A stretch of DNA of 64,000 nucleotides, taken from the NCBI GenBank assembly GCA_964036665.1, contig OZ038530.1, positions 19,986,001-20,050,000 of the forward strand, in the 5' to 3' direction. Positions 6,350-64,000 of this stretch are shown here, piece by piece (position 1 is the first letter of the stretch; each line of letters begins with the position of its first letter). The stretch comes from Gordius sp. MW1. Its lineage: Eukaryota; Nematomorpha; Gordioida; Gordea; Gordiidae. The translations under genes and the position numbers were made by a program. The notes under the pieces were generated by a model. That model ran no database searches, was not told where the DNA came from, and saw nothing but the letters and a program-made list of their open reading frames with translations.

Positions 6350-9300
6350 CTATAACAAAAAATACGTTTTTAGTTTTTGGCGTCATTAAGGTTATAACAG
6401 GTGTAGTCAATGTGATTTATAATAAGGGATGTCTTAATTAGAAAAAGTTTTTTTAATGAGTACTGGTTACTTGCAAACAAACAAACAATAATATGTAATT
6501 TATACAACAAATGGTATTGATCCTTATATGGAACTCGGGTTTTAGAGATTTTCATCGTAAACTACTGAAGTTAACACAAAATCTTTTGAAATTTTTGATA
6601 TTATTCAATATGAAGTATCCCTGTGACAAAAATATTCCCCCCTTCTGATTTTTTATTTCTTATATGACCATTAATATAATCAATTTTTTTAAATTGTCAG
6701 TTTTGTCATAGTGCTTTTAACTACACTGGATTTTGGGGCAAAGATTTCTGGTCAATATTTATAAACCCGCTATTATTGTTGACTATGAGAAGGGTTAAGA
6801 TATGCGAAGATAGATAGTAATAAAAATAATAAAAGATAAAAAAAATTAAATTTCCAAAAGCAGTGATACAATAGACGTTTATCGAATATTTAAGGATTAC
6901 CATATCTTCCAAATACCCTGTAAATATAGTTTTAATCTCACAAATTTTTGGTTAAATATAGTTTTTCCTCAATTAATTTCATCTATGCCCGCTAATAAAT
7001 ATTAAAAAAATGAAGGGCGACGAAGCAATAATATAAATCAATAATAATACCTAACAGTTATATGCTCATAAGGACGAAATTAAAACTAACCTTTGGTGTA
7101 AACACGGAATTGGGAGGTGTGCCCAATTTTGGCTTGACCATCTAAGCCCGAACCTTGAGCTACACATTTACTAGCGTCGCCCGTTAATTCTTCCACGTAA
7201 ACTCGGAAGGGACTTCTAGCCACTTCGCGTCCGGCAAATTTAACATCGACCTAGCAAACAATTTCAGTTTTTTCGTGGTAATTTTTAAATTGTGATTAAA
7301 GTAAATTATATCTTATAATTATAGTGGACAAAAGAGAAGCAGGGTTGTGATTTAAAGTTATCGTTCATATTCCATTTTATGTGAATTATTTATTTCAAAA
7401 ACTGAGATGTGCCCTTGGTTAGACGCAATATTCATCATGTTTGAAAGTTTGGAAAAGTCTGACTCTGACCCAGACAAAACAGTGTTATTTTTACTACTAG
7501 CCCAACCTTTAAAATTAGTCGGCTTTCTTAATTGTTTCGAGTAATAATGGTAGAAATAATGGTAAACGAGTACTCCGCAGTAGTAAGTCGCGTTTTGGTA
7601 AATTTTTTAGACATGGTAAATTTTTAAATTTGGAACTTTAAAATAGCTGTCTTAAGATTTATTAATTGCTTTTATTAAATTTAAGGTAAAATAATATAGG
7701 ATTTAATCGCATCCTCGACTTATTTTCAACGCAAAATGCTGGTAATCATAATCATAATCGCATTTATAGGATAATAAAAATTTAAAAGACAGAAATATTG
7801 TATAAAAAATTTAAACCCAAACGAATAAATGATGAAAGTAAACTTACGAGGTAAGTGCCTCTGGAAGGAGGTGTATATGTGCAAGTGTAGGTTAGGTTGC
7901 GGTCGTCGTTGAATCGGACGTCAACCTACCAACATTAGAAATTTGCAAATTAGGGTAACACATTTTATTTGTCAATTAATATTATAATTAACATGAAATA
8001 TATAAATAATCCGTGAATGTTTAAAAGTTCGGTGTATTATGCAGGTTGGTGTTGTAAAAACGGCTGGATTTTGTTTGGTCGACCTTAAAAATCAACGGAT
8101 TTTTGGTCTGTTTTCCTTAGTCGACCCCTAGGCCCAGTCGAAATTTGAAAAACAGACCAGAATCGTAGTCTTAGTAAAACCAAAGGAGGTCGACCAAACA
8201 AATCTCAGCCCTTTTTACAACACTAATGCAGGTATTGGAGGACATGGCACGACAAGACAGATTTGGTAAAAGGAGGAAGATGTTGGCTTAAAACTTGGGG
8301 TCAAACGATAAATTTTTTGAAATTTTAGCCATAATTTTAATACATTTCAACAAATTTTTGAATTTAGAGGGGGCAGCCGCCCCTTACTGCCCCCCCCCTT
8401 GGCTAAATTAAAATATTCCAACACCTAAGGTTTTAAAGTGTCAAGTTATAAATGATTTGTGATCTCGAACCATAGGAATTCTCTTTTGTCATTAATCAGC
8501 GAAATGACATTTTTTCCATTTTTGATCAGTTGCCCGTTAAATAAATTATATTTTTAATCAAAGATTTTAGTGTATAATCTGATTTAGATACAAATCAATC
8601 AAGAGTCAACGCTAATGGTTTGCAGCAATATACATGTAAAACCCCATAATTAGACAAAGTATTCACGTAATCGCCAACATATTAATCACAAGAAGTCAAA
8701 AAATAAGTAATAATGGTGAGTGTGTTCGAAAAGATAAAATAAATTTGATGTTATATCTAAGATCCATAGGGGTCCAAATAAAATACTTTCTAAAAATTAA
8801 TTTTAATAGCATCCCTAAATGAATTATATCTTTATAAAGACATCACAAGTGAAACGTGTCTATCTCCTTTCAAAAGGGATTCTGTTATAAATCTTAAATT
8901 TTGGCAATTCATAGCCAAAGGATGTGCACACAACTTCTTAGAACTTTTGAAAAATAATAGAAGGAATCTGTGCCGCAACTCGGACCTACAAAAACACCCT
9001 TCATACATAGGCAAGTTTTTTGTATTTCCTCTAAAGTCTACGGCTTGATCTCAAGTAATTTTTTCCAATATTCCTTTTAATTTTAAAAACACCAACATTT
9101 CAGATGCTTAAAAGCAGCGCCCTTTAGCAAATTTAAGTTAAGAAAATAGACTAAACATTAATTATTCCATAGTCTTAATACATGCCTTAATGCAGAAACT
9201 ATGAAATATCAACAATCTAGGTGAAAAAGTTAACAGCACTTGCGGGAACCTTACTTCCCTAATATAAATGTAAATTGCCAAAGCCTAAACTCATTACGTA

Positions 9301-19368: not shown

Positions 19369-19939
19369 ATCGGACGTTGGCAGCTCCTTAATTACAAATC
19401 TAATTAAAACGTGCTATCGTGGGTATTAAAAAGCTTAAAAATTTGAAAAACGTAGAAAAATGTGGGTATTGATAAAATGCGTGAAAGGATTATCATATGT
19501 GTTTTTCTACACAACTTGATTCATATATAATAAAAGATAAAACAAAACTTTGTTAGCAATTAATATAGGTTACGTTAAATATTCAATCATTTACTCAAGT
19601 CAGATTAATTAAATTAATTAATAATTATTTATTCATCTAAGTTATTCATGAAAGTCCAGTTATTTATTTCTTACTTTTTTTAAATTAGTATATTCAATAT
19701 GAATATTTTATTTAGTACATTCATGTATTTCGCCGATAATATTTCAAAGGTCCAGCGTGAGACGATAACAAAAAGTAAAAGTTACAGCTATATCATAGAA
19801 GAAAACGAGAATTGTGCGCATGATAATATCTCGTTAAAAATGCGCACAAAGAAATATTAATTATCAAGTACGATCAGCCAAGCATGATCTGCCAGCGCAG
19901 CTGCCATTAGTACGCGTATCATAAAGCGAGAAGAGAGAG

Positions 19940-22123: not shown

Positions 22124-22379
22124 AATCACAAGTCAATATTTGTAGAGCTAACTTTAGTAATATTTAAAAGACCTTTAAATTAATCTAAAAAATTTAAGAC
22201 GTTTTAGGCCTATAATTTGTGATTTATACAAATATAGATTAAAGCAAAATGATTCATTGTAAATTGTTCTCTCATTGAAGTAGCGCAAAAATCAAGCGAC
22301 TACTTTTAGAAAGTTCTACTCTAATCAAACGATTTTAAATTAAATTCATAAATAAGATTTATAATAGTTTATTTAAATT

Positions 22380-23046
22380 ATGAAATCCTACTCATGTATT
22401 AGAATGATTACCAACTCATTAGCAACCATAATTATTTTAATTATATGCTCTATGTTGCGCAATTTTGAAAATCGTGATCTTAATATCACTGCTTATATAA
22501 ATAACGGAACAAAAATGTTATCGGATGAAATTGCGATCACTGAAAATTCTATAGACTTGGATGAAGCTTATGTCACATCAAATGAGATTAATGCTGAGCT
22601 AGATGATAACGGTAAATATATAGAAGAAGTTCTAAATGACACCCTTAATTTATTATTGATTTCTAATATTACCGAACCATATCCAGTATTCAAAGAGGAC
22701 TTTAGATATACAACTAAACATCAGAGAATTATAAAAAAGGTACTAACTGACATAGAATCATCAACAAATGTTAATTCGACTATGCCCGAGAAAAGCTATC
22801 TCAAAATTAGGAAACCAATAAAAAACGCATTATCTAAAAACAATAATATGAAGGGGCCAAGGATTGGAATTCCAAGTAAAGGTCATTTGTTAAATCGAGA
22901 AAATTTGATTTCCAAGAAATTAATGGAAAACAACACATGTCGGCCTGCTTGTAACATAAATGCACATTGTGACTCTAGTGATTCTAAAGCCCCAACATGT
23001 ATATGTAATTATGGATACGATGGTGATGGAGTTGCAGAATGTAGAG
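22380..23046 (+). CDS. EGF membrane protein exon 1: signal sequence, ectodomain, EGF1
   Basis: The start Met precedes a hydrophobic stretch typical of a signal sequence. A low-complexity ectodomain follows with several potential N-glycosylation sites (NIT, NGT, NDT, NST, NNT). The exon ends with a six-cysteine EGF module. An uninterrupted frame continues nine codons past the donor (TGT-AGA-G/gttttg) to a stop at 23075, so an unspliced transcript would give a short secreted form of 231 residues. Confidence 0.75.
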
Positions 23047-26000
23047 GTTTTGTTAAAATTTATTGCAAAAACTGAGCTATGAAGTTTATTTCTTGAAATA
23101 TTAACCCGATCAGAGACATAAATTTTACGACTCATATTTTTATTGTATAGATTATATGTTAAAATTCATCTTTTTGTTATAAGAAAAAATAGTAAGAAAA
23201 CTTTATTCGTCTTTAAGATGAGTAAATTTCCATTAGCAAATTTATCTGGTTTGTTTTGGGTTCGGTTATGAGTGCCCATCTCTTTTTCTCGTTTTGAAAG
23301 TTGTTCAAAAATGTTTTAAAGTGGTTTTATCAATTGTAGAGATAATATTTGTCTATATTTTTAACGACGTTAATAATAGAGAGACGGTTCTATATACTTT
23401 TAAAAATACCTTATGATCAACTAAAAGCTTAAGCATTTTGTTCACATATTAATCAAGCCTCTTAAAGTTTCATTATATTGTCGTTTAGTTGTGTTGTTCC
23501 ATGTGTGATTAAAATTTTTAATCGTGGTATAATTGCCTTTGCAGAATTATTCTTCCACAAGGATAGGCGAATGATGAAAAACAAAAAAACCAGGCATAAA
23601 GTGTTGAAGAGCCTAAAAAGTAAGCATAAGAATACAGCATTTTGGGAGTGGTGGAGGGCGTTAGAGCCCTTCAGGCCATCGGCCCGGTCCAACAAGATTT
23701 CGGGCTGGATACATGCAAAAAATTATAAATTAATTGGGCCTGTTAGGTCGGCTGCCCCGAGGCCGACCTGGTCCGAACTAAAACATACTTACCTATAAGG
23801 AAAGGGCATGGGGGTCAGGGTAACAGCCATTCCCATTTTTTGAGCCTTTCTAAAGGTATTACATTTTTTCCAATTAGTTTTTAAAGGCCTAATGAATAAA
23901 TTAAAAATTCTCTGAACTACTTATATTATCTTATTCCGATTTAATATAAAATAAGAAGATGCTTAATACTATATTGATACACAATTTTTATCTTTTATTT
24001 CCATACTACCTCTAATTAGATTAAGAAGTTACATGAATAATTTATATTGTTTCGCTAATTAATAATAACTTTGTAGCCGGTCATTTGTGTGAATTGAATG
24101 TGTGTCAACCCGATGATACATGCATGGAAACTGGAGCTAAAAGTTTCAGGTGTATTTGCAACCCTACAATTTCAGTCCCAATCAACGGCTGTGTTCCATC
24201 TATAAACGTTACTGAAAAAGACAGGCAAAACGCGCGACATTATAAGCATGTAACCGCTGTTTTATTTCTTTTATAATATATTTATAATAGTTGATTCATT
24301 TACTTACAGATTTCATATAGTGAGAGCAATCTGCACTATTGACAACGTTTCATTCATGTTAATTTTATAAATTTAAAAGTGTTATAATCAAAGCGCTATG
24401 TTTTAAAAAGAACGTCTTTATAATACCTATCGCTTTTTGAGAAGCTTATTAAGTCAAAAAAGCAAAGCCATAATAAAAACTTGACGTATTAAACTACATT
24501 TTTCTTGGCAGGAATTACGGAATAAAAAGATTCAGGTTGAAGAGGTGGAGCTATTATCACCCGAATTAATATCACAACTCGAACCGGAGGTTGATGAAAC
24601 AAACGACTATATGGGTAAGATAAAATTATGTCATTTACCTAAAATTAGAGATCTGCACGGGTGCACTAAACCCGACCCGGACCCGGGGTTGGAAATTTTA
24701 AAATGCTTTCGGGTAGGGTTTGGGTTGAAAGTTTTAAACTAAATAGTTTTAGTAATGCTAATAGATTTAACCTGCCTCTTAATCTAATATATAATCCATG
24801 GCTATATCAAGACCGGGGGATAAGGTTAAAATCTACTTTAGGTCGGGTCTAGTCGGATTTGAGCTAAAATTAATAAAGCTTTTCGGGTCGGGTTTACACT
24901 CGTTTATTTTAAAGATCGAATACTGTAAAATATGTTGGAAGAGTTGTTAAAAAGACTATAGATAGAAGTTAACAAACGTTTGAAGTCTTATGGTCAAAAA
25001 AATGACTCAAATATTAGTTGGCCCTCAAACGCCAATTTAAATATGTAAAATAATAAAACGGTTTTTGCATTTAAGGATATATCTTCAATGTTTATAATTG
25101 TTGTTCTTGCCTAAGATTTCAAAGTTAGGATCTAAAATAGTGAAACTAAATTGCAGTAGCTTCAAAATTAAATAGGCGGTATAAAAGGCACCTTATATAT
25201 ATTCTCACTAAGGTCAGCTTAAACATCAACAATTTTACCACAAAAATTATTTGAAAAATTGAAGGTACAATTACCTTTTAAAACTTTAATTTAATTAAAA
25301 ATATGCTGTTTATTTTTAGATGACTTTAGGGTGACCACATCAGGATTCGAAGATTGTCGTATGTGCTCCGGTCCGGGTTCTGAGTGCGTCGTAGCGACTA
25401 ACCTGACTTTATGCTTGTGCTTCCCGGGCTACGAGGGAAAATATTGCGAGCATAAAAGTAAAGCAACATTTAACCAAGTAAAAATATAAAGCCTTTAAAG
25501 TTGCAAATCTAATTTGGTTTTGCTGTAGAACACGACCATTTTTAATTTTGGACAAAAACACATGCTGAAATTTTTTTGCGTACTACGTATGTTAAAGAGC
25601 GGTGAGAAAGCGTTAAAGGCACATAGTTGCTCCGACCAAATCCAATTAAATTCTTATTATATAAAGTATATTTTAGACCGTGTGTGCTTTAAGGTATTTA
25701 TTAAGGTCCCGAATAATATCGAATTACATGAGCATGGCTATGTGAGATAATACACCTTTAAATAAGTCAATGAAGTGATTAAAAAACGTTTGTTTCCATT
25801 TTGTGCATTAATATACAAAAAATAAGTTTCAATAATTGGGAGTTAATTAACACTACACACTCTACTAGTTTCGAGTTTCAAATGGATATTAGACGACAAA
25901 AAGAGTCTACTCTTTTATGGAGGAACCATAGGCGCAATCACATTAACTATCGTAACGATTCTGTGCATCGTATTTTGTAGAAAATCTTCATCCTCTAAGT

Positions 26001-35286: not shown

Positions 35287-38200
35287 AACATCAGAAACGC
35301 ACCATTTGTCCGATCAAACATTAGCCTTAGATAACGTGAATCAGCTTAAAATGGAGTCAGATAGGCCTGAGGACAATTCACCTTTGCATACCATAAGGAG
35401 TCAGGATCCTCAATCTAAATCTTTGCTCAAAAAAGATTTATCTTCAGTCATAATGCAGGTAAATTATGGAATTTTATCAATTTTTTTTTTTTATTCTAGA
35501 CTAAAATAATTTTATTTAAGATTAAATTGTAAAACTTTAAATCGATTAAAAATAAAGTTTTGATTATATTGCTATTTTAAGATGTTGGAATTAGTTTATA
35601 AAATGTCAATAATAATTGATTCATATATGACTGTTTTTTTTTCACATTTTCTACTTTTTGATTTGAATTTATTGTAAGAATTTGGCAGAAATTTAATTAT
35701 GTATTATATCTGCGTTTTACACGAATAAATTAGTTTTAACGCCAGGATAAGTGTTTTTCTATTAATTGCTACACATCTGTATTTCCTATCCTAGAATTTT
35801 TTTCAACTAATATTTGTTAATAAATGAAACCAGTAATGGAGAAAGGACTATATAATTTTAATTCTCAAATTATAAACTACTCACTCGACCATAAATTAGC
35901 GGTTTAAGAAAGCATAAACGTGCCAAGAGATATTTTTTGGCAGCAAATTTTCGTTACAAAATCTAAGGCCTTCCCCCTTTGGCTATAATGTCAAAACGCG
36001 TCGAAAACTGCAATTTACACTTATTTAATCCAGTATGATGATGACAAGCACTATGCTAATCGTAATCCCAAATGCTCAGTTTCTTTTTAAAAAAAATTGT
36101 TATGTAATGTAAACTCACCTTATTATGTTTTTTTTAATTTAAACGCTAAATACATTTTCGAAAATTATTTTTTTTAAATGTTATGCAATTTATGGGCTCG
36201 CTTCTTGTAATTTTCATATACGATCGATGCAGAGTTATACTCAGATTATATAAAATCGTTTATTTCAGAATAAACTCTTTTTTATTCATGTGGCGAATTG
36301 AGCTAGAAATTAAGTTTTTTATATATAAAAGTTTATAACCGTTTCAAGTTTAAAAGTTAATTTGGAAGGAAAAAAACAATTACGTTTTAAATTCAAACAC
36401 GCATTGAAGAGAAAATAGTGTATTTTATAAAATTGAATCGAAACCTTGCTTTATATAATAATTTTCATTGGTAAGGGAATTGGATTTTCCTTTTTAACAA
36501 CCTCTCATATACGTGAGGTGAATTTAGATTTTATCAGTGTCTGCCTTCGCCGAGATTGTATGTATGGATATAATTATTGATTGATTTACGATATTAAGAT
36601 CGTTTTGCCAGTTATTTATTAATTGCTATGCAATTTATGGGCTCACTTTCCATTTTCCGAATGTCACGCACCGAACGTGGATGTCACGCACCAAACGTGG
36701 ATGTCACGCACCGAACGTGGATGTCACGCACTTTTAATTTTTGTTATTTGTTAATTTAATTTAACCAGTTTTTGGGTTCGAATCCCGGGATTTTTTTTTT
36801 CTATTATGATTGTTCCTGTTACTACCATTGATAATAAGACTTTTTGGCCGTCCGTTGGGTGCTGACCAATAAAAAAATGACCATTTGGCCAAAGTGTGAA
36901 GCGAAATTATTTTTGCGTTTTTTTTGACTCTTATGATTGTTCTTGTTCCTACCATTGATAATAAGACTTTTTGGCCGTCCGTTAACTGCTGACCAATGGA
37001 ATCGTGGATGTCACGCACCGAACCGAACGTGGATACGCACTTTTAATTTTTGTTAATTTAACCAGTTTTTGGGTTCGAATCTCGGGGTTTTTTTGAATAT
37101 TATTATTGTAACTGTGTCCGCTGGCTACTGACCACTGTAAAAAAATGACCATTTGGCCAAAATGTTAAACGAAATTTTTTTTTGCGTTTTTTTTGCCTCT
37201 TATGATTGTTCCTGTTACTACCATTGATAATATTTCTTTTTGGCCGTCCGTTGGCTGCTGACCAATGAAAAAAACGTGGATGTCTTGCACCGAATGTCTT
37301 TTTTGTTTACTTTTAATTTTTGTTAATTTAACCAGTTTTTGGGTTCGAATCCCGGGGTTTTTTTTGACTATTATGTTTGTTCCTGTTACTACCATTGATA
37401 ATAAGACTTTTTGGCCGTCCGCTGGCTGCTGACCAATGGAAAAAAATGACCATTTGGCCAAAATGTGAATCCAAGTTTATTTTTTCGCTTTTTTCCGCCT
37501 ATTATGATTGTTCATGTTACTACCATTGATAATCTGCCTTTTTGGCCGTCCTCTGGCTACTGACCACTGAAAAAAAATGACCATTGGCCAAAGTATGAAG
37601 TAAAATTTTTTTCCTCGTTTTTTTGGCTAACATTGACTTATAGAGTATCTGTTGGTAGTGACCAATGAAAAAAATGACCATTTGGCCAAAATGTGAATCG
37701 AAAATTTTTTTTCGTTTTTTTTGACTTTTATGATTGTTTCTGTTAATACCATTAATAATATGACTTTTTGGCCGTCCGCTGGCTACTAACCATTGGAAAA
37801 AAATGCCCATTGGCCAAAGTATGAAGTGAAATTTTTTTCCTCGTTTTTTTGGCTAACATTGACTTATAGAGTATCTGTTGGTAGTGACCAATGAAAAAAA
37901 TGACCATTTGGCTTTGACTCTTATGTATTAATAGATTGTCTTTTGGTACTGACCAATGGAACAATTTAGCACATGTAAATTTTTTGATATATCTTTATGA
38001 TACCTGTGACAGTTTTAGATGCGCGGTCGTAACAGGCAATAGCGGAGCTATTGCATGTCGCTGATAGTTTCGTCGTAAGGATTTTTTTAATTTTTATTAT
38101 TATTTCCCATTAATTTCTATGTAAAATTTTTTAATAGTTTCTATGCAATTTTTTATTATAAGCTACAATAGGAATTATCCCAATTAAATTTTTTGATATA

Positions 38201-41200: not shown

Positions 41201-44200
41201 CAGCCGTTTTTACAACACTAGAACACGGTCTAATTTGCGAAAACTCTCCTCATGTTTTAAACACGTAAAGTTGAGATGATATATAATAATCTCTTGGGGA
41301 CGCTAACACCATATCCGAATTAGCTGGCTATTTCGTATCTTCCTTTACATTAAAATTAACCAAATAATTGATTATGTTAAATAAATTGCATTTTTTGCCA
41401 TATTAATTTTGTATTATACACACTTATATGAGGTCTTAGATTGCCCAAATGACGATGCTAGTGTTAGAAAACGGCTCCACTAGTCTACTAAACATCAACA
41501 GATCGAAGATTATATGGTCTGTTTTTCTTAGTCGCATAAATAGACGAAAGATTTTTTGGGCAAATTTTTGGTCTGTTTGTGTTTTAGACTAATAGACTGC
41601 TCAATCCCTTTTAAAAGGTGTTCCACATTTGGCAGCCATTTTGAAAAGTGAAACACGAATTTTGGCCAATTTATTTGGTTTGATGAATTTTTAAAATCGC
41701 TATATAATGATTAAAATGGGTTGTTTCATGTTATGAGATCAATGATCATTGTTTAATACAATCAATCGCTATACAAACTCTACTTCACTTATCAAAATGG
41801 CGGTCGTTTTTGGCAAAACTTTTGATGCGTGAAAAATATATAAGAGATGAGCAGTCTATTAGTCTATGGTTTGTCTTTAGTCGACCTCGACTAAAACCAA
41901 CGGTCGACCAAACGAAACCCAGCCCCTTTTTACAATATCGCTTATAGATTAGCTAATGACCGTTGGTTAGCTTTTATTTTTTTTTTAAATTGTTTTCTTT
42001 TTTGGTGCGTGTTGTGTTTAGGAGGATAAAATTGAAACTAGCCTTGGATACGTTATAAATGTGGCCGTTCAAGGCAATAAAGCGAAACCTGCTATACTAA
42101 CCTACCACGACATGGGATTAAACCGTAAGTGGTTTTGTGAAACTTACGAACCGAATATCTTGAAATTAATATGAAAAATAATGGGGATGTTCCTGGGTTA
42201 TATTTGTTTTAATTAATGTTTTTGTTAGGGCTCTTGTCTTAAACTTCATTTTTTCTTGTAATCTTCTCCTTATATATTGCCTAATCGCAATATTATTAAT
42301 TTTTAATCAAAGAATCCAACCATAAAGATTAAGGCTATCAAGGGCATTACAGAGGGGGGCAATAATAATTTAGGGAGGGGCAAAATGATCATTTTTTAAA
42401 TTTTAGCCATAATTTTAATGAATTTCAACAAATTTTTGGATTTAGAGGGGGGCCTCCCTGCCCCCTTGGCTACGCCATGAAGGCTTTAATTTTTTAATTT
42501 TAACCCGTTTGTTTTGTTGTTGTTGTTCAGACGTGGCTCAGTTTCAAAACTTTTTCGGCGGAGATGACATGAGTATACTACTGCGTTACTTTTGTGTTTA
42601 TCACATAGACGCGCCCGGACAAGAAGAAAATGCGGCTCCTTTAGTAGAAGGGTTAGTAGACATTGATCAATAATAAAATGAACATTATACCAACTTTTTA
42701 ATGTTGTTTTTAAAATTATAACTAATTCAAACGAATTTATTGATTGCTCTGTAAAATTGAAATATTGAATCTTATATTTGCCAATATTTTAAGATTAATG
42801 GGGATATCAAACTCGAGCTTGATCTTCTATAAAGCTTAGAAACTGCAAAATTTATGAGTTGATTGTTTTGATGTTTATCCTCGTTAAATGAATTTTTTTT
42901 ATAGATTTCTATATATCCCGAAAAGCAGCCCTATTTAAACTATTTAAAATGACTTACCACCGAAGATGTTAGACTGGATCATGGGCGTAGCCAGCATTGG
43001 AAGTAGAGGGGGGCAATAATGATTTAAGGAGGAGTAAAATGACCATTTCAAAAAATTGTATGGGCCATTCCATGTCGATTCGTCAAAAAAAAGACGATTT
43101 TCGACCGACCATTTTAGATCAGGATAATTTTTGGTGAGGGTGTAGGCCTCATTTATTAGATTAATTTCTGAAAGTTTTAGCCATTTTGGGCCAACACTTT
43201 TTAAGTTATGGACGTTTAAAGGGCCAAAATCACGTTCGGGAGCGTTTTATGAATTTTACTATTTTTTCATATTTTTGAAAGTAATTGCGTTACTCACTCA
43301 GATTTTGGTGCATTTTGTTCCTAAAAAAATTCTCTATCGAAATAATTTAACCAAAAACCTCAAACTTTTGCGGTTAATCTTTTGTGGTAAAATTAGTGAA
43401 AATTCATAAAAACATATTTCTCCGGTATATAAAATCACCAATTTCACAATGTGAACTCCTTTATGACCCATTATCATATTTCAATCATAAAAAGTTTGGG
43501 CGCGGCTACGAGATGGTCAAAAATTCGAAAAATTGCATTTTCAACAAAAATATTTATAGATGGCGGTATAATCAATTATCACAAGAACATATTATGGTGT
43601 TTGCTTTTTATCAAATTTCAAATTTTTAAAAAATATATGGTAAATAAATAATAATGGATTAAAAATCAACTTAAATTTTGAACTTTTATCTACGCGGTGG
43701 GCAAGTAACCGAGTTTGAAAATAACTTTAGGTTTAATTAAGATAAAAAATGGTCACAACTAGCAAGAAATTTTTTTTAAAATACCTTTCATCCTGCATAA
43801 ATTTTTTATTTTTAGCATGGATTATCAGTATAAAAATAAAAATATATGAGCAATTTGGCCATCATATTAGTATTTATTTATTTTTTCAACCTCATATTAA
43901 TTTTAGCATACCCCTATATCATTTAAGTTAAAATTCAAGATCTAATTTTCAAACACGGATAATTGCCAATTGCGCAGAAAAAAAATCAAATTTAAGTTTA
44001 TTTTTTTTCCAATATTATTTATTTACCATATATTCTTTATAAATTTGCAATTTGATAAAAAATAAACACCATAATATGTTCTTGTGATAATTGATTATAC
44101 CGCCATCTATAAATATTTTTGTTAAAAATGCAATTTTTTGAATTTTTGACCATTTCGTAGCCGCGCCCAAATTTTTTATGATTGAAATATGATAATGGGT

Positions 44201-47200
44201 CATAAAGGAGTTCACATTGTGAAATTGGTGATTTCATATACCGGAGAAATATGTTTTTATGATTTTTCACTAATTGTACCACAAAAAATTAACCGCAAAA
44301 GTTTGAGGTTTTTGGTTAAACTATTTCGATAGAGAATTTTTTTAAAAACAAAATGCACCAAAATCTGAGTGAATAACGGAATTACTTTCAAAAATATGAC
44401 AAAAATAGTAAAATCCATAAAACGCTCCCGAACGTGATTTTGGCTCTTTAAACGTCCATAACTTAAAAAGTATTGGCCCAAAATGGCTAAAACTTTCAGA
44501 AATTAATCTAATAAATGAGACCTACACCCTCACCAAAAATTATCCTGATCTGAAATGGTCGGTCGAAACCGTTTTGATTTGTCCTGGAATGGCCCGTATC
44601 CATAATTTTAATAAATTTTTGGATTTAGAGGGGGTCAGCCGCCCCTCTCTGCCCCCCTTTGGCTACGCCCATGGATTGCACTTAAATTTAATAATTGCTC
44701 CTTGATATGCCAGCAACACGGGTTCTCCCTCTTCGAGCGGACCTCGGGAGACTAATGGGGTGCAATTGAGCACGCTATACGAGGGCAAAGATAGCGATAA
44801 ACAAGGATTAAACACTCTTCCAAATCCCGATCTCGATAATGCTAACGAAAGTTGGGGTTCCTACTTGAGCTCCTTTTTAGGCAGTTGGAGTCCGAAGTAA
44901 GCTTTTCAAAAAATTTCCATAAAATTGCATTGCAACATGTTTGTAATTTAGTGTTATTTTTTTATTCGAAGTTCATAATTTGTAGGTTTAAGATGGAATT
45001 ACTGTCCAATGTGTTGTATGAGTGGCATGTTCTTGAGGATTCAAGGTTAAATTGCGTTGAAATATGTTGAACTTTTAAGTTGTGATCAAGTAGGGCTGAA
45101 ATATATAGTGCCAGCGTTAAATGACTGAAATCTGTGAGAATTTGGTACGAATCTGCGAAAAGCTGTCTTAAAAATGATATATTTTTGTAGGGTAAAAAGC
45201 TTAAATAAAGGGAATAGATTTTTAAATTATGGTTACATTACATTTGGAAAAGTTTTATTGCGAGACTCTCCTTCTTGGGTGAGCTAATTTTGCAATAAAG
45301 AATTTTAGTTTGCTTTAAAAATGCCAGCCCGCTAAATTATAATTATAACTAATTTTAGTGGTATTAAAATTTGATTTTGTGTCATTTTAGTGCCCCTTAC
45401 CCAACTATGGATGAACTGGGGGATATGATAGAAGATGTATTGAAATATTACAAGTAAGACTCCGCATCTCTTAATAAATTGGGATAAAAATTGTGCACTG
45501 CTTTAACATAATGATTTTAATTCGAAATAATATTTTACCTCTTATTTCTAAAATTATTTTAATCTAAAGCAACAATTATAGCCTTACTTCATTTTGGGTA
45601 GAACTCACTCTTGGTTGTCCCTCCGTCCTGTCCTGTCCAACTTGTAATCTTTTAATAATTGCTATGGAAACTTATACGGGTTTTTAATGTCTGTGGACTT
45701 ATACTTCTTTAAAAGACTCTTATTTTGCTTTCGCATATAGACTAGATATTTATCGCTGATTGGCTTAGATTTTTTCGACCTCGCCCGAGCCTAAATTTAT
45801 TTTTATTTTTGTGCCCGACTGATTACCTTTATTAATGAATTTATGTTGGCAACTTGTTTATGTTGTGGCTTTATAACGGATAATAGCGAAACTTGCTAAA
45901 TAATTGCCATTTTAATGATGACTAACTGTTGCTTATTTCTAATTTGCCGGCCTGGCCCGAGGCCAAATCTGTATAGATCATCGCCTTTTCTAAAACAGTT
46001 TTGCGAAAAATTTCTTATAATTTTTTATGTTTTTGTATTGGTTATAGTAATTGATGTGGAGATATAATTTTTTGTTTGTAAACCTAATTTGTTTTTATAA
46101 GCATCAAAAGTTTCGTGGGCCTTGGTGTGGGTGCTGGTGCCAACATCTTATCCAGATTTGCGGTATGAAATATTCTTTTTATCAATTAATTCTAGAGTTT
46201 AATTCTATCGAGCAGATTATGCTTTTGAGATATGAAAAAGAATAATTCGAGTTTTTTAAATAAATTAGATAAAATCATACTATTTATAAAAATACGTGTA
46301 ATTATATAGTATTCATTTATTTTTTTTATAATGCATATTTTGTGAAGGTGCGATAAATAAATAAAAAAGCTAATAAATTTTAAAACATCGCAATTCTTTT
46401 TTTAATTAATTTGTGTTTATTCTTCTCTACTTTGTATTTATAGCTTAGTCATCCCAATCAAGTGGAAGGACTATTTTTGATTGAAGCGTCAGCCTCAGTT
46501 GCTGGTTGGAGCGAATGGGGATATCAAAAGGTGTGATTTGTTTTTAGATTCAGATGGATAACCATTTATTAATACCTTGACAATTTTTCAGATTTATTTT
46601 TATTTTTTTAAATACTTTTTTCAGCTAAAAATATTACATATGTAAGATATAAAGAAAGCATTATACATATTTTCTATAAGAGTCAAAAATGTTAAAAGCC
46701 TTTTTATGTTAGTAATTTTTTATTGGAGGGGGGAGGGGAGTTTACTGTATCTTTTTGAGTTAAAAATTAGTGTTATTGCTTGATTATAATTGTGTTGCAA
46801 TATGAAGAAAGACGATTTTTAAAAACCTAGGATTTATGGATCCGAATCAGATTATTATATCCCATTAATTTACGCATATAAATTTTGTTGTTGTTTCAGC
46901 TCAACTCCTTTTACTTGCGTAAAAACGCGTTGACAAACTTCACCAACGAGTACCTCATTTGGCATCACTTTGGCAGGGTGAATTTTATTCTATTCGGATT
47001 TATAGATTTATAATTGTCTGTATAAGTGCATTCCTAGTCTCTTTAGAGCCTAATTGGGTTGCGATCGATATCATATTAGCTTTGCTTTATTGATTTGCAA
47101 TTATATTAAAATTTTAGTTCATTCTAATCAATGTTACTTGTTACTAGTTTAATATATAGCGTTTTTTTGACAATTGGTCCAGTATGTTATGGAGCAATTT

Positions 47201-52594: not shown

Positions 52595-53317
52595 CAGTGG
52601 TTCTTAACCTTTTTATACACGCGGCCCCCCAAATATTTTATAATTTGTTTGCGGCCCCCCATTTTTTTCATAATAATTTATATTTGTTATATTATCTATA
52701 AATTGATTTTCTATTATTTTTTCATTTTATTATATAATAAACATAAAACACAACTTTATTATTTCATTATCTATTTAAATTTAAATAGATAATGAAATAA
52801 TAATAACATAAAAACTTCATAATTAAACATAAAAACAATGTTTAAAATAAAAAATATATGCATTCGGAAATATATTTAATGAGATTTCTGCTGCTGAACA
52901 TCTTCAGCCAATTTGTTGATTCTTGGTTCAATTGATTGTAATGCTATCCTCATGCAGGAATCTAGTCGCAATCGATTGCGTTTTTTAGTTTTTATATCCA
53001 CCATAGTTGAGAAGCCTTTTTCACACAAATATGTACTAGTGGAAGGCAGCAAATTTTGAATTGCTGCTGAAAATAATGGAGGATATTCTGCACGAATTTG
53101 TATCCAAAATTGCGGCAAACTTTGTTTTAAACAAAGATTTTAAATTACAATCATTTATTAATTCTAATAATGAATCTTAAGGCAACGAGTTCGAATCCCC
53201 TGGTGTTTTTCTAAAGCTTTTCTGTATATTTTTATTTTATTCCAAAAATTTGGCGGCCCCCCAGTAAACTTCTCGCGACCCCTTAGGGGGTCGCGACCCC
53301 CAGGTTAAGAATCACTG
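52595..53317. mobile_element. hAT transposon remnant 1 with perfect 8-bp target duplication
   Basis: The ends CAGTGGTTCTTAACCT and (inverse) CAGTGATTCTTAACCTGGGG are typical of hAT elements. GACTAGAT is repeated on both sides (52587-52594 and 53318-53325), the 8-bp duplication expected for hAT. It contains an inverted AATAGATAATGAAATAATAA hairpin and the last 80 codons of a transposase on the minus strand. Confidence 0.88.
52876..53118 (-). pseudogene. hAT transposase C-terminal fragment 1
   Basis: It reads PQFWIQIRAEYPPLFSAAIQ, then TYLCEKGFSTMVDIKTKKRN: the C-terminal hAT dimerisation region of ZBED/Charlie-like transposases. All upstream catalytic parts are missing, so it is non-functional as a transposase. 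It has 80 codons and ends QQQKSH before a stop. Confidence 0.8.
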
Positions 53318-55689: not shown

Positions 55690-57600
55690 ACGAAAAAAAA
55701 TTTCGATTTATTTGGCCAATGGTCATTTTTTTATTGGTCAGTAGCCAGCGGACGGTCAAAAAATCATATTATCATTGGTATTAACATGAACAAATATTAA
55801 TTTAATTTAAAAAAATTAAAAAAAAAAAAATTTGTCCCCTCCCTGACTTGAACCCCACACCACCAGTTCCCAAGCCGGCGCTATAACCACTATACCATGC
55901 TGGCTTTAAAATAGAAGAAGTTATTATGTTATTTATATAGATAATGAAATAATAAAGTTGTGTTTTATGTTTAGAAAATCAATATATTTCGTCGGTCAGT
56001 AGCCAGCGGACGGTCAAAATGTCATATTATCAATGGTATTAACAAAAACAAAATATTAATTTAATGTAAAAAAAAAATTAAAAAAAAAGGTTTTTTTTTT
56101 AGTTTTAAAAAAGGGCTAAATTCTTAAACTACCAGCCCGATTCGCTCGAAACTTTACCCGTAGGTGCCCAGGGCGGCCGGGGGTAAAATAACCTTTTCAG
56201 ATTCCTAAAATACCTTTTCATTTTAAAAATATCGAACAGTTCCCTGCCACACGTGCGGTGTAATATCTATGACACGTAGAAAAATTTTACTAATTATATA
56301 AACTTACGCGCGCCATCTAATAAAGTACAATTCGTGTTTGAGTTTAATAGTAGATTCAATTTAATTAGAAATAACGGGCTATGATTATACCTTTGAAGGA
56401 GGTTTCGAATTTTGTGTTAGTTTCTATCGATATATTTTATCGTAAATTAGAAGCTAATACCTATATTATTTTTTTAAATATTACTTTTTAGGTTTTCTAT
56501 GAAATCACAATCTAATTAAATGAAATATATTAACCCAATAAAAAATATATATGCATTTATAAGGTTAAAAATATATATTACATAGTTGGCTGTCTGTTAG
56601 ACCATCTATAATAAATTTTTAGGTTATATATAAAATTTGGCCAATGGTCATTTTTTTTCATTGGTAAGCAGCCAGGACACGGTAAAAGTGGATATAAATT
56701 CATAAGTCAAAAAAAACAAAAAAATAAACTCGGATTCACATTTTGGCCAATGGTCATTTTTTTCCATTGGTCAGCAGCCAGGACACGGTAAAAGTGGATA
56801 TAAACTTATAATAGTCAAAAAAAAACTAAAAAAAATTTTCGAATCACATTTTGGCCAATGGTCATTTTTTTTCATTGGTCAGCAGCCAGGACACGGTAAA
56901 AGTGGATATAAATTCATAATAGTCAAAAAAAACTAAAAAAAAATTTTCGAATTACATTTTGGCCAATGGTCATTTTTTTCCATTGGTCAGCAGCCAGGAC
57001 ACGGTAAAAGTGGATATAAATTCATAATAGTCAAAAAAACGAAAAAAAAATTTCGAATCACATTTTGGCCAATGGTGATTTTTTTCCATTGGTCAGCAGC
57101 CAACGGACGGCCAAAAAGTCATAATAGCAATGGTAGTAACAGGAACAATCATAATAGTAAAAAAAAACGAAAAAATAAACTCGGATTCACATTTTGGCCA
57201 ATGGTCATTTTTTCATTGGTCAGCAGCCAGCGGACGGCCAAAAAGTCTTATTATCAATGATAGTAACAAGAACAATCATAAGAGTCAAAAAAAACTCCGG
57301 GATTCTAACCCCAAAACTAGTTAAATTGCATAGCAATTACCAAAATCTAAATATAGAAACATTGGTCAGCAGCCAGCGGACGGCCAAAAAGTCATAATAG
57401 CAATGGTAGAAACAGGAACAATCATAATAGTCAAAAAAAACAAAAAAAATAATTTCGATTCACATTTTGGCCAATGGTCATTTTTTTCATTGGTCAGCAG
57501 CCAGCGGACGGCCAAAAATTCTTATTATCAATGATAGTAACAAGAACAATCATAAGAGTCAAAAAAAACTCCGGGATTCTAACCCCAAAACTAGTTAAAT
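55690..57600 (+). repeat. Tandem array of about 110-bp unit (array 2)
   Basis: Inverse orientation to 36760-37970. Units carry CATTTTGGCCAATGGTCATT, CATTGGTCAGCAGCCAG and GGACGGCCAAAAAGTC, and alternate between two spacer types (ACACGGTAAAAGTGGATATA and ATAATAGCAATGGTAGTAAC). It is inserted inside hAT remnant 2. The segment 55990-56640 is a diverged, interrupted part with no gene signal. Confidence 0.85.
55833..55905 (-). repeat. tRNA-derived sequence (pol III A and B boxes)
   Basis: Read on the minus strand, GCCAGCATGGTATAGTGGTT holds a good A box and GGGGTTCAAGTC a good B box, at tRNA-like spacing, with a plausible anticodon arm CCGG..CTGG around TTGGGA. The acceptor arms do not pair (GCCAGCA against GGGGACA), so it is a tRNA pseudogene or the head of a SINE and not a working tRNA. 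An A-run follows on the plus strand. Confidence 0.65.
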
Positions 57601-57960
57601 TGCATAGCAATTAAAAAGTAAACAACTTTTATTTATGTTTATTATATAACTAGTTAAATTGCATAGCATTAAAAGTAAACAACTTTTATCTATAGTTAAA
57701 TTGCATAGCAATTAAAAGTAAACAACTTTTATTTATGCTTATTATATAACTAGTTAAATTGCATAGCAATTAAAAGTAAACAACTTTTATTTATGTTTAT
57801 ATAATAGATAATTTAACAAATCTTATATATAACACAGCGAGGGAGATAGAGATGAGGGGTGGGGCACCTCTTATGCATAGCAATTAAAAATAACACAGCG
57901 AGGGAGATAGAGATGAGGGGTGGGGCACCTCTTTCTCATGCATAGCAATTAAAAATCGAT
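57590..57960 (+). repeat. Nested short tandem repeats with TTGCATAGCAA palindromes
   Basis: About four units of AGTTAAATTGCATAGCAATT plus AAAAGTAAACAACTTTTAT (57590-57800) are followed by two units of AACACAGCGAGGGAGATAGA plus GATGAGGGGTGGGGCACC, ending GCATAGCAATTAAAAAT (57836-57955). They join the right border of array 2 to the resumed hAT sequence. Confidence 0.8.
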
Positions 57961-58135: not shown

Positions 58136-58686
58136 TTAATGAGATTTCTGCTGCTGAACATCATCAACCAATTTGTTAATTCTTGGTTCAATTGATTGTA
58201 ATGCTATCCTCATGCAGGAATCTAGTCGCAATCGATTGCGTTTTTTAGTTTTTATATCCACCATAGTTGAGAAACCTTTTTCACACAAATATGTACTAGC
58301 GAAAGGCAGCAAATTTTGCATTGCTGCTGAAATTAATGGAGGATATTCTGCACGAATTTGTATCCAAAATTGCGGCAAACTTTTAGTTTTAAACAAAGAT
58401 TTTAAATTACAATCATTTATTAATTCTAATAATGAATCTTCATCATCTGATGATAAATTATAGTAATTTACATTTTCTTTCTCGAATTGAAATTTTGAAT
58501 CAGAGAATAGTTGTGAATAGAATGGAAACATTTCATATATATTTGAGTCATTCTTTGAATCCATCTTTGGAATTTCATTTTCATAGCCTCAATTTTGTTA
58601 TGCATAGTAAAAATATCAGATTTAGGTCCTTGCATAGATATATTCAACTGATTTAGAATTGTAAAAATATCCGCTAGATATGACAA
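58136..58686 (-). pseudogene. hAT transposase C-terminal fragment 2 (frameshifted)
   Basis: Two overlapping frames. The upstream one (58468-58686) has SYLADIFTILNQLNISMQGP, then FTMHNKIEAMKMKF. The downstream one (58136-58564) has EMFPFYSQLFSD and the same dimerisation end as fragment 1. The frame must change near 58560, so the gene is broken as well as truncated at its 5' side. Confidence 0.8.
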
Positions 58687-59691
58687 TTTATCGACCCAAT
58701 TATTGTCATCAAAATAGCAGGGTGTAAGTGGTTATAGCGAACGTCTTGTAAATGTAAACAAACAGAAGGCAACGATTTCGAATCCCCTGGTGGGTATTTT
58801 TTCTAAAGCTTTTCTGAATATTTTTATTTTATTCTAAAAAAATTTGGCGACCCCCCGGCAAACTTCTCATGACCCCCTAGGGGGTCGCGTCCCCCAGGTT
58901 AAGAATCACTGGTATAAAGAGGCTGTTAAAGGTTTTTTTCGTTTGCTAGTTTAAGTCGAAGGTACGAAAGAAAGAAGATCTAAGGGAGCATATTAATATG
59001 GACAAAAAAGGGTACGATTTCAAGAAATTTTTGTATTAACAGAAAAGAATAGCTGATTATTAAGTAATAATTGACTATGGAGAGCCCGCTCCACTTGTGA
59101 GGAAATAAAGTTCGGCCCTCCAAGGGAAAAATGCTAGTTAGGCCACTGCCTTGGAGGCCTATAATTGTAATTTGTATAATTTTTTTTGACCTCATTTCTA
59201 CGACTACTTTTTCAAACGATAAATTTAAAGTTAAACGCTAAAAAATGCCTTATCTAATTATTGACAACTCCGGCTTCGATCCTCGCCCGAGGCTTCGATT
59301 TTAATCGGCTTTTTTGTTAAACGTTAAACCTAAGCCCTTCTATATAATGTAGAGACGCAATAATTATTTGCGAAACAATTCTAGAGGACAGGGTTTTATG
59401 GTTATCTCTCTTTTTTAATAAACATAAACTATTGATTGTCATGCATGCCATTTATAGTGCTGTATAAAATAAATATTTGTTGCTATTAAACTTAGCATTA
59501 ACCAAGCATTTACATAATTGTTGTTAATTATAGATAGCATTATCATTATTGGATCTTTAAATAAACGTGACAAAAATTGGCTTCAGGCTATTTTTATCAG
59601 CATTAGATATTTAAAGTGCTAAAAAAAGCATTAAAGTGTAAGCGGGAATCAGAATAACAAAGAAAAGGGAGACACAGTCTCGAACGCGATG

Positions 59692-61633
59692 TTAAAATAT
59701 AGTAGGTCGTTTGCAAAGTGGACACATTGTTGCACCACTCATCGCATCCAATGGTCTCATACACACAGGGCATGTAGATATAGCAGGCTGTGCTGCACTG
59801 TAATTAGAAGTGTAGGGTGCTTGAGCGACATAATTTATTTGCTGCGGTTGGGGTTGAAAAGCTTGCATCTGCGGTTGGGGTTGAAAAGCTTGCATCTGCG
59901 GTTGGGCTTGGAAAGTTGGCATCTGCGGTTGTTGCATGTCCAAAAAACTAACTGCTTGATTGGCCCATAGTGTATTACGTTTGCATTCAGGACATTGAGT
60001 CAAAGTTCGGATGACACTTTGTTTCATGGTAGGACCCGCCGTATTCACCATGGTGGTATAACTGGGAGATGACATCATAGGTGGCGAGATTTGTGCCTGA
60101 CCAGTATAGTAAGGGTTTGAAAATTGATTGGCCATGTTGGGTACCTCAACAGGCTGCATACAAGTTTCACAAAAGACTTTTTGTGTTTCCACAATTGGTG
60201 GAGCCGTTTGAACGACTAATGTCATACGCCTACAAGATGGACATTGCGTAACAGCCGTTCCACCTGATCCCATTCCGTATTGCTGAGATGGTTGATTTAA
60301 TGGTGGTTGAAACATGCCATAATTCTGATTTTGATTAGGGACTGCCACATCCTGATAGGTCATCAAAGTGTTTCTTCGACATTCTGGGCATTGGCTAACG
60401 GTCGGTACTTTGACCATCGATTGTGTTTGCTGAACCATGTTGTAGGAAGGTGCCGTGTAATTTTGGATAATTGTTGGAGATGGTATTGATTTAGTGACGA
60501 CTTCGTTAGTCACCAAAGTATTTCTATGACATTCCGGACAGAGGCCTGTCTTTTGAATCATAAATGATTCTTGTTGCATGGGTTGTTGGGCATACTGCTG
60601 CGGCATCGAAATGTTCTCATAACTGATCATAGTTTGTCCGCATGTACCACAATTCGTAATTTTGGGAACGGAAACAGAGGGAGGTTGCTGGAATGCTTGC
60701 ATACCTTGCATATCTTGATTATTATAAGCAGCGTAAGGATTTATCTGCGGTTGAGGGGCGGTCATCATGGGAGTTCTGCAAGTTGTACATAAAGTTTCTT
60801 GATATTGAGCATTTGGACCCACATTAACTTGCTCTTGCGTCCAGAGAGTATTCCGGCCACAGCTAGGGCATTGCTTTAGTTTAGAAACCATCATCGAACC
60901 TCCCATCATGGGAGCTGATGTGTTCTGGGCTTGCATTGGAGCTTGACAAGTTGGACAATTCGTCATTGTCGCATTTGCTTGATCTGGATCTGGAACTTCA
61001 ATGACTTGAGATGTCATTAAAGTGTTTCTATGACAAGTTGGGCATTGTGTTAATGTGGGAACTATCACGCTCTTTGTCCTCTGACCAGGGTAGGCCATAC
61101 TTGGTTGGTATGAACTTGCAGGCATGGGTGCTACTGAGCCAGGATAATAAGACGTGGGTCCATTCATGTCTAAAAAGTTGTAATATACCTGAATAACAGG
61201 ACACTTATTTGAAAATATTTTATCGTTTAAACTAAGTTTTGGTTGATCGTGAGTGAGGCAATATGCAATCCAGTCTATATCCGCTTCCTTTTTCAGCCTA
61301 TTTAAAATTTCAATCTGCTTTATCAACTTTTTTGAATCAGGAATAATGGTTTTTCTATCCATTTCATCAATGGAATCCTTAAAATCACCAAATCCTAGCA
61401 CATGTGATTCATTATGAAGAGTTCCACGTTCCTTTTCGTTTGCTAAGATTTTCAGCACAAAAAGTTCTTATTAATATATTTTAAAATTCATTTACAAAGT
61501 TAAATAATAATGTTATAGCTAGCAAGCATAATATCGCTATCTTAACGAACAAAAATAAAATGAATTCGCTAAAGTTGTTTAATTTTCAAAACATACTTGC
61601 TTCAAGATTTTTAATATAAGGAATTGGAGCCAT
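59692..61633 (-). CDS. Twelve-CxxC zinc-ribbon repeat protein (2 exons, unrecognised family)
   Basis: Exon 1 (61597-61633) encodes MAPIPYIKNLEA and ends A/gtatgt. Exon 2 (59692-61466) starts after ..aataag at phase 1, giving AKLFVLKILANEKERG and a frame of about 590 residues, so the protein is about 603 residues. The N-terminal about 115 residues are a charged helical segment (KKLIKQIEILNRLKKEADID, then WIAYCLTHDQPKLSL). The rest is seven or eight copies of a 55-65 residue repeat built on CPxCxRNTL (HRNTLMT, GRNTLWT, HRNTLVT, RRNTLMT, KRNTLWA). Some copies have a second knuckle (CPTC, CTTC, CETC) and some do not. Linkers are Gln/Pro/Met-rich. It ends CPVCMRPLD, then CPLCKRPTIF. Twelve CxxC pairs predict several bound zincs. 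No enzyme motif is seen; the role is unknown. Confidence 0.8.
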
Positions 61634-62395
61634 TATTTATAGCAGAAAGGAGAATGTAAATTAATAATATAAGGATCTGAAATTTATGGGTGTAAAAATA
61701 GAAAGAAATGGGTTGTAAAATAATAAAGACGACGAATAATATTTATTTCCATTAATTTATTATACTTATAATCAGTAAAACATAAACAAAGGTTTGATGG
61801 TTACGTATTAGACAACGTCATAATTGACTTATATTATTGTTTTTTATTTGACATTTGCCAATTATTGCATCAACATAGAAAAAAAAGTTTCTAAATGTTG
61901 AAGCATTTCTACACATACCAAATTAGTCCTTTTAACATTATATATTCTAAATTCGTTTCAATTTTTATTGGAATAAGAAAAAAAACTGTTATTTAATTTT
62001 ATTTTTAACCTATCAAGTCGCCATGCTGACAAAATGGCTATAAAAAAATTTGCCACTTCACGAAAATTGGTTAATCTATATCGAAATAGGTGATGTGACC
62101 CCAATACATTCTAACTTAAAAATATAATTTAATTTAAATTGTTTTTGCAATAGTTAATTTTTTAAATTTATTTGATGATCATATATTAGTATAAAACTTA
62201 GTTGAAGGAATAGAAACCTTCTGCGTCATTTGCGTTTTTCTTATAAGAACGGTTTTACTTAATTAAATAAAGTATTTCATAATTTTCCTTAAGCCTTTTT
62301 ACGTCCCCCTTATCATTAGAGGTAAATAAATAGTAATCTTCGATTGGTTATGACAGAAACTTCTAAATGACTAAAGGAATAGAAAAAGATAATAA

Positions 62396-62744
62396 AAAGT
62401 ACGCCTATGGGAAATATTCAAACCCTTATGTGTAATTTTCGAACGAATCTTAACTTTCTGAGATTCGAATCTTTAAAAAAAAATTCGAAAAATCATTTAG
62501 CTTTTAATTTATTTTAAATAGACGAGACGCATAAAATACGTTTTTATCTTACCACAATTTAGTTATAATTCCCGCTATCATTTTTTAGTGAAATCTAAAC
62601 ACGTTCGAATCGAATTGAAATCTTAAAATTTCTTTCGAATCAAATCCAAATCTTCGAAAAAATTTTTGGAATATTTTTACAAAAAATTTTCGAATTCGAG
62701 CAGAATATTGAAAATTTTTGATTTGAAATCCACAGGCGTACTAC
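62396..62744. mobile_element. MITE with AGTACGCCTATGG termini, AATTCGAA-rich interior
   Basis: Left AGTACGCCTATGGGAAAT; right inverse ATTTGAAATCCACAGGCGTA followed by CT. The interior is rich in TTCGAA-type words. Intergenic. Confidence 0.6.
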
Positions 62745-63258
62745 AAAGTATATAACAAATTGAAATCAAAACTTATATTGTTTTTTAGTAATGTAATTTT
62801 TAATTATTATATATGCCTAATTCAATCATAAAATCTTAATTGGACAGAAATTACTTTTATATTTTAAAAATACCGAATATAAATGCCTGGCTCAAACAAA
62901 TCAAGCTACTTTATTAATTTATTTAATAAAATTAAATTCATGCTACGTTTATACGGAGTACAGATGAGTTTCGTTTCCCCTTCCCTCCTGCCCCTCCCAG
63001 TTTTTATTGCTATGCAATTTATGGGCGAGAAAAGTGGGAAGGGGCGAGAAAGATGGGAAAGGGCGAGAATGCCTATGGGGGGGGAGGAAGTCAAGATAGT
63101 TGTTTTTAAATATGCTATTTTTATATTAATAATTTCCTCAATAAATAAAGTATTAATAAATGTTTTATAGCTGGTTTTACAAAAATTTAGCGTAAACTAG
63201 GTTATCATTTTGCATTTTATACTTGATTTTGAAGGTTTCTTTCATTCATTCTTATTTA

Positions 63259-63480
63259 CAGCGTTTACCTAAACTTTTGCACTTCGTATTCCTCTCCTGC
63301 ACACTAGTAGGAGAGAAAAGGGGTAATCCATCATCGCGTTTAACATGAAACGCTCATTTTACATGCGAAGGGGAGAGAAGGAATGAGCGATTCATGTTAA
63401 ACGCTATGATGGATTACCCCTTTTCTCTCCTACTAGTTTGCAGGGAGGAATACGAAGTGCAGAAGTTCAGGTAAACGCTG
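63259..63480. mobile_element. Near-perfect palindromic MITE with TA flanks
   Basis: Arms of about 100 bp begin CAGCGTTTACCT and share CACTTCGTATTCCTC and GGAGAGAAAAGGGGTAATCC. TA flanks both ends (63257-63258 and 63481-63482). CAG-ended arms with a TA duplication fit a pogo/mariner-type element (inference). Confidence 0.8.
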
Positions 63481-63699
63481 TATCAACTGCTAAATTAATC
63501 AAAATAACGAAAGGAACGCAAATAGAGGGTATGACCTTGGAAAAGCGTACCAGTAGTCATCCTTCCAAAACGTACAACTTTCAATTTAAAGTTTTTTTGA
63601 TACTGTATAATTTAAACAATTTGGTATAGGCGATCCATAATTTGAATTATGACTATAGAATTTATTCAAATCATGCGCATATGTATAGTATAAACAAGA

Positions 63700-64000
63700 T
63701 ATTTAAAAAACGAAAAAAATTTCCAATCAGACTTTGGCCATCGGTCATTTTTTCATTCGTCAGACGGCCATATAGCCTATAATTATAATATAAAAAAATG
63801 CGATATACACTTTGACCAGTGGTCATTTTTTCCATTGATTAGTAGCCAGCAGACGGCTAAATACTAGCCAATAATTATATTCTAGAGAAAAAAATTCGAT
63901 TTTGATCTCACTTTGGCCAGTGGTCATTTTTTTTATTGGTCAGTAGCCAGAAAACGACCAAATAGCCTATATTTATAATATAAAAAAAATTTGATACACT
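63700..64000 (+). repeat. Tandem array of about 110-bp unit (array 3, runs off right edge)
   Basis: Diverged units: ACTTTGGCCAGTGGTCATTT, TTGGTCAGTAGCCAG, then ATAGCCTATATTTATAATAT spacers in place of those in arrays 1 and 2. Confidence 0.75.

Follow-up and report, generated by a model that had tools for sequence, protein, structure and literature searches.

An array of twelve CxxC knuckles of two classes in a single gene of Gordius sp. MW1: a possible zinc-ribbon scaffold

The minus strand of the window, i.e., the whole stretch of 64,000 nucleotides analysed here (positions 19986001-20050000 of its contig), carries a long open frame containing 26 cysteines, 24 of which are organized in exactly twelve CxxC knuckles. 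These belong to two classes, six A and six B, whose succession along the chain is A B A B B A A A B A B B. As judged from its sequence, the protein could be a flexible scaffold inside the cell, carrying four to six Zn sites, in which the RNTL strand would hold several copies of one partner, a reading that we consider to have about an even chance of being right. The gene and its product comprise the following parts, the modules and knuckles being delimited from the sequence and the minisatellite by repeat finding:

59692-61467, minus strand: long open frame, 591 codons from stop to stop, plus a TAA stop (59692-59694)
61597-61633, minus strand: possible exon 1, optional (MAPIPYIKNLEA plus 1 nt; donor GTATGT), from sequence and codon score
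61360-61362, minus strand: in-frame ATG, codon 36, from sequence and translation
61123-61467, minus strand: charged N-terminal region of 115 codons with one predicted helix and no family, from profile searches and AF2
60931-61059, minus strand: module A1-B1, Cys 142,145 / 171,174, 25 residues between
60760-60885, minus strand: module A2-B2, Cys 200,203 / 227,230, 23 residues between
60610-60666, minus strand: lone B3 knuckle CGTC, Cys 273,276
60493-60555, minus strand: lone A3 knuckle CPECHRNTL, Cys 310,313
60343-60405, minus strand: lone A4 knuckle CPECRRNTL, Cys 360,363
60142-60258, minus strand: module A5-B5, CPSCRRMTL, Cys 409,412 / 433,436, 20 residues between
59953-60009, minus strand: A6 knuckle CPECKRNTL, Cys 492,495, 70 residues to the next knuckle
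59842-59931, minus strand: 27-nt minisatellite, 3.3 copies, in the A6-B6 linker
59695-59781, minus strand: C-terminal module B6-B7, Cys 566,569 / 582,585, 12 residues between, ending the protein

In the flanks (59000-59690 and 61640-64000, both strands), 4904 overlapping stretches of 100 codons were examined and not one is open. According to the original prediction, the long frame alone has no ATG, which is wrong, codon 36 being an ATG (61362-61360) in the context GAAATGG, with further Met residues downstream. A start at this codon would give an intronless protein of 556 residues that keeps all twelve knuckles, so that exon 1 is dispensable and a missing exon junction is no argument against the protein. 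The putative exon itself, plausible from its sequence and not required for the protein, has a codon score that is equalled or exceeded by 4.1% of 3302 noncoding 12-codon stretches, and could be joined to the long frame in phase via five listed acceptors (exon 2 from 61466, 61442, 61394, 61283 or 61274), among which 61466, with its poor pyrimidine tract, and 61442 are the closest. Beyond the window, no additional exon was recognised by eye in 9 kb among frames of at least 75 amino acids. Codon usage is a weak witness and does not set this frame apart: with a training set of 1151 codons from other frames of the window, chosen by eye, a score of 0.139 per codon is obtained for the N-terminal frame versus a mean of 0.026 for noncoding sequence (sd 0.069, maximum 0.233, 434 stretches), i.e., only about 1.6 sd over that mean, and in the repeat part an antisense frame scores higher (0.224) than the real one (0.196).

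The predicted number of twelve knuckles is borne out, composition-preserving shuffles of the chain after residue 115 (n = 2000) giving a mean of 1.18 CxxC and a maximum of 6. The class A copies read CPTCHRNTL, CPSCGRNTL, CPECHRNTL, CPECRRNTL, CPSCRRMTL and CPECKRNTL, and the class B copies CPTCQAPM, CTTCRTPM, CGTCGQTM, CETCMQPV, CPVCMRPL and CPLCKRPT, most of them conforming to CxxCxxP. The seven to eight repeats thought at first to share CPxCxRNTL were an overcount, as there are five exact copies (first Cys at residues 142, 200, 310, 360 and 492) and the near-copy CPSCRRMTL at 409, the remaining six knuckles belonging to the other class. The A/B split gives the top contrast among all 6-6 partitions (rank 2/924, the tie being its mirror), a value which is descriptive since the classes were read off the same sequences as those scored.

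Successive knuckles are separated by 25, 25, 23, 42, 33, 46, 45, 20, 55, 70 and 12 residues. That only some repeats possess a second knuckle was correctly anticipated: three A repeats are followed by a B knuckle within zinc-ribbon range, A1-B1, A2-B2 and A5-B5 with gaps of 25, 23 and 20 residues, respectively, and the terminal B6-B7 pair, 12 residues apart, is the fourth pair with two knuckles in this range. B1 and A2 are no farther apart (25 residues) than A1 and B1, and distance alone leaves the pairing a guess. Conversely, gaps of 46, 45 and 70 residues follow A3, A4 and A6, and these three knuckles together with B3 are without a close partner, apart from the 33 residues that separate B3 from A3. 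Histidines after residue 115 occur only at positions 146 and 314, each adjoining an A knuckle, so an unpaired knuckle must find its cysteines elsewhere, in the same chain or in another. Of the two solutions proposed originally for such copies, zinc shared between repeats or other ligands, the second is thus unlikely as far as histidine is concerned, and the four lone knuckles may share Zn, either at long range or between molecules.

Modelling of eight aligned repeats with AF2 (pLDDT 54.3, pTM 0.28) places strands at 3-6 and 13-16 of the repeat unit, flanking the first knuckle as expected of a zinc ribbon; strands of at least three residues flank the first knuckle only (pLDDT 54), the spacing of the second knuckle being in range in the four pairs. 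The whole frame gave no usable model (pLDDT 33.7), and at this low confidence neither the unit nor the whole frame reveals a tertiary fold. In the scaffold reading, each of the four pairs would close one Zn2+ to form a zinc ribbon of roughly 30-40 residues, and the RNTL strand after the A knuckles would offer one kind of partner, either protein or RNA, a docking face repeated for avidity. The linkers (275 residues off the knuckles) are rich in Gln, Pro and Met, as had been noted, with 18.9% Q, 12.7% P and 8.4% M; FoldIndex values are close to zero (-0.09 to 0.26), so that the disorder of the linkers is deduced from composition. They probably act as disordered spacers of little constrained length, one of which would have been lengthened by the minisatellite. 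Two copies of this 27-nt unit are identical and the third is 89% so, encoding PQMxxFQxQ three times inside the 70-residue A6-B6 gap, so that linker length has changed recently. The N-terminal 115 residues correspond to the charged, helical region originally described, with 15 K/R, 17 D/E and one helix predicted at residues 45-62 in a low-confidence AF2 model, and could provide a separate contact.

The one odd feature of this protein is its set of lone knuckles (B3, A3, A4 and A6), which may represent half-modules that pair over a long range, remnants of decayed modules, or interchain Zn sites as in Rad50. For a long-range pair, B3 with A3 would be the likeliest choice. If instead the lone knuckles bind Zn between chains, the protein would be a zinc-cross-linked multivalent polymer, forming a zinc-dependent gel or condensate, which by analogy is conceivable and on the whole unlikely. 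The four lone knuckles with no histidine to finish a site, and linkers rich in Q, P, M and Y, are consistent with it, as is the precedent of Rad50, in which an interchain zinc site can be built from a single CxxC of each chain (PMC5093744). Moreover, the C-terminal unit weakly matches Rad50_zn_hook (PF04423; E 0.0016, 18.7 bits for a cut-off of 24.3). However, the best stretch of this match under the cut-off covers 11 residues, PMC5093744 also describes coiled-coil contacts as essential for stable assembly of Rad50 and none is evident here, twelve is an even number that allows for six intrachain sites, and nothing points to self-association of the chain. A combination of both ideas, with intrachain ribbons alternating with deliberate half-sites and the zinc level setting the number of joined chains, would make a zinc-switched scaffold, or a condensate, the like of which our searches did not reveal, and to which we give a very low probability.

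A metallothionein-like store or buffer, holding Zn or Cu by means of its Met-rich linkers and devoid of partner binding, would account for the 24 knuckle cysteines and the 8.4% Met, but cysteines make up only about 5% of the 476 residues after residue 115, along which they are dispersed, and the A motif is kept beyond its cysteines, the RNTL tail being conserved past the needs of chelation, which argues against a mere metal store and makes it improbable. Similarly, a repetitive chain rich in Q, P, M and Y that grows by a minisatellite could suit an extracellular or surface matrix protein with disulphide-cross-linked cysteines. Repeated CPxC knuckles are nevertheless typical of reduced, metal-binding proteins, and the N-terminus, inspected by eye, is not signal-peptide-like with either candidate start, which argues against a secreted matrix; this reading too is rather improbable.

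With respect to constraint, the six copies of the A motif show identities of 0.64, 0.77 and 0.35 at codon positions 1, 2 and 3 over 11 codons. Over 16 codons, third positions (identity 0.321) are no more alike than after random synonymous recoding (0.368 ± 0.036), which indicates that the A copies are old and held at the protein level. This synonymous type of divergence, together with 591 open codons facing flanks without a single open 100-codon stretch, speaks against a decaying or chance frame devoid of function, a view for which the irregular order of the knuckles, the missing partners, the weak codon score and the lack of a known homologue within the collections searched could be invoked, and which we hold to be a poor prospect.

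The gene has no recognised relative in its own genome (211.8 Mb, 12 contigs), where CPxCxRNTL matches five times, all within this gene, and a reversed control gives no match. Used as queries, neither the whole frame nor the N-terminal part nor two repeat blocks uncovered a genomic paralogue, in a protein search that scores the best candidates and that a distant, intron-split paralogue could escape. Three weak matches occur elsewhere in the genome; two of them (L010 and L013) were rejected as relatives, since by eye they lie on the strand opposite to pol frames of retrotransposons, and the third (L014) has an E of 3.07 and contains two stops. Similarly, no relative was found in viral contigs (3 pattern matches, 0 confirmed), in prokaryote genome contigs (14 pattern matches, 0 confirmed) or in phage and plasmid scans, and literature searches for such a protein brought up no relevant paper. 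The term orphan would therefore apply to the searches of its own genome, of viral, prokaryote, phage and plasmid sequences, of the family libraries and of the PDB. As part of the scaffold reading, whose even chance it shares, the gene would be single-copy and either lineage-restricted or fast-evolving.

No Pfam or NCBIfam model is matched at its cut-off by the whole chain, its pieces or the derived profiles, and PHROGs and PDB yielded nothing convincing with the same queries. The repeat and the N-terminal region, searched separately by profile, both stay short of any family cut-off, and a strong match of the whole chain to a described family is absent from Pfam, NCBIfam, PHROGs and PDB, within which the original opinion that no named family displays such an architecture holds. 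Below the cut-offs, zinc-ribbon models are matched weakly, though more than by Cys-fixed shuffles. At E<=1, the whole chain (591 aa) matches 11 Pfam families, of which six are named zinc ribbons and two are multihaem cytochromes, i.e., plain Cys patterns, to be compared with 0, 0, 1 and 1 families for four Cys-fixed shuffles of the 476-residue repeat part and 0 families for the N-terminal 115 residues alone. Unit A1-B1 matches 22 families (best E 5.6e-4) and its five Cys-fixed shuffles 0, 0, 0, 13 and 0 (best 4.5e-3); the shuffle that matched 13 families had retained CPTC and CPNC by chance, so that CPxC on its own accounts for a good share of this signal. Units A2-B2, A5-B5 and B6-B7 match 7, 4 and 22 families, the shuffle controls covering A1-B1 and the repeat part. 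The best PHROGs value (5.8e-5, 24.7 bits), for phrog_10049 of unknown function, was discarded as a whole-protein sum of which no single stretch passes, the best having 15 residues, and it probably reflects the repeated CPxC.

One more origin deserves consideration, namely a derived LITAF-like zinc ribbon that has lost its membrane-inserting middle. Two of the genome's own LITAF domains start with YCPHCRTNIMT, resembling CPECRRNTLMT, and the N-termini of LITAF proteins are often rich in P, Q and Y. On the other hand, PF10601 matches five places in the genome, none of them in this gene, and is absent among the Pfam matches of the chain; hhalign against three of the five genomic LITAF domains aligns 10 columns (probability 24%, E 8e-4 as a single comparison); the A motif has one extra residue between the knuckle and the hydrophobic strand; and the A-B gaps of 20-25 residues, mostly polar by eye, contain no hydrophobic middle. 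At the sequence level this origin is largely refuted, and it appears highly unlikely. The five LITAF-like places (L017-L021) include two, L018 and L019, with domains that are 96% alike as protein.

Two frames on the minus strand, 58136-58588 and 52876-53139, have in common a near-identical stretch (CEKGFSTMVDIKTKKRNRLRLDSCMRIALQSIEPRINKL) and are remnants of hAT transposons, the first matching the hAT dimerisation region with 20.8 bits for a cut-off of 21.4 and the second being assigned by eye. A filamin-like gene extends over 646-19413 (minus strand), with a CH domain frame at 19015-19413 (E 6.8e-14) and, by eye, probable further exon frames at 18702-18989 and between 646 and 6416; one of its introns, 40 nt as read, ends with TTTAAG, resembling the acceptor at 61466. 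Frames with EGF-like cysteines occur at 22377-24276 on the plus strand (EGF_3, E 0.002, under cut-off; the second frame by eye). Tandem arrays of common TTTGGCCAATGGTCA-like units, with periods of 108-274 bp, occupy 37357-37912 and 56636-57613 in opposite orientation, as judged by eye, and a diverged version occurs at 63714-63988. Near-same peptides on opposite strands (43146-43629, plus; 44037-44502, minus) point by eye to an inverted repeat of several hundred bases, and a MITE-like hairpin at 63257-63482 has one pair of 38-nt arms and another of 63-nt arms, with 95% complementarity in both. Outside the window, the twelfth contig of the genome (L023, 14,798 bases) looks mitochondrial from its sequence, its first 9,000 bases, translated with code 5, being read by eye as COX1, COX2, ATP6, COX3, ND3 and ND1, which points to an animal genome. 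Chitin_bind_4 and Glyco_hydro_6 gave no match, a weak indication since the controls were equally silent. A tandem repeat at 3690-4010 of this contig, between ND1 and COX1, contains a repeated LLLPYYYLTIT frame.

On either reading of its lone knuckles, the gene is a compact and testable orphan. Should the half-sites be real, nature would here provide a test of whether a single chain can use CxxC half-sites many times for zinc-dependent assembly, as Rad50 does with its one hook; if the lone knuckles are remnants, it would be a clear case of a drifting repeat protein that keeps its docking motif.

Among known systems, RanBP2 carries an array of small Cys4 ribbons (PF00641) in which an Asn is conserved behind the first knuckle, a Trp precedes the first Cys and the knuckles are spaced by about 10. 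The present chain resembles it by its array of putative small Cys4 ribbons, by the Asn that follows the first knuckle and by the CxxCxxP tail of the B class, which recalls the second knuckle of RanBP2, but its knuckle spacing is 20-25 and no Trp precedes the first Cys. PF00641 matches three places in the genome, none of them in the gene, and is absent from the Pfam matches of the chain at E<=10; an origin from RanBP2 is unsupported by this profile search. The best solved-structure match for both repeat profiles is the archaeal zinc-binding domain of Nop10 (PDB 3mqk_B, 2aus_D and others), whose first knuckle RKCPKCGRYTL resembles LKQCPSCGRNTL, with an E of only 0.06-0.21 over 10-12 residues, which is not significant; moreover, Nop10 has its second CxxC within a few residues and is a single domain, in contrast to the array found here. 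In Pfam, the double zinc ribbon Zn_ribbon_6 (PF07191) gives the lowest whole-chain E (0.0047, best stretch over A1-B1), with 17.3 bits for a cut-off of 25. DUF7837 (PF25207) is the top match of A1-B1 (E 5.6e-4), over 39 residues that cover both knuckles, with 20.3 bits versus 27.8, and DUF7575 (PF24460) that of the C-terminal unit (E 5.6e-4), with 19.7 bits versus 28.5 over 12 residues and one knuckle, a family also matched by a Cys-fixed shuffle of A1-B1. The Rad50 zinc hook offers a parallel for the lone CPxC, which might serve as half of an interchain Zn site, and differs by its coiled coil. The architecture is absent from the libraries searched and built from ordinary parts, so that the protein seems to arrange the familiar zinc ribbon in a new way and hardly to be a machine of a new kind.
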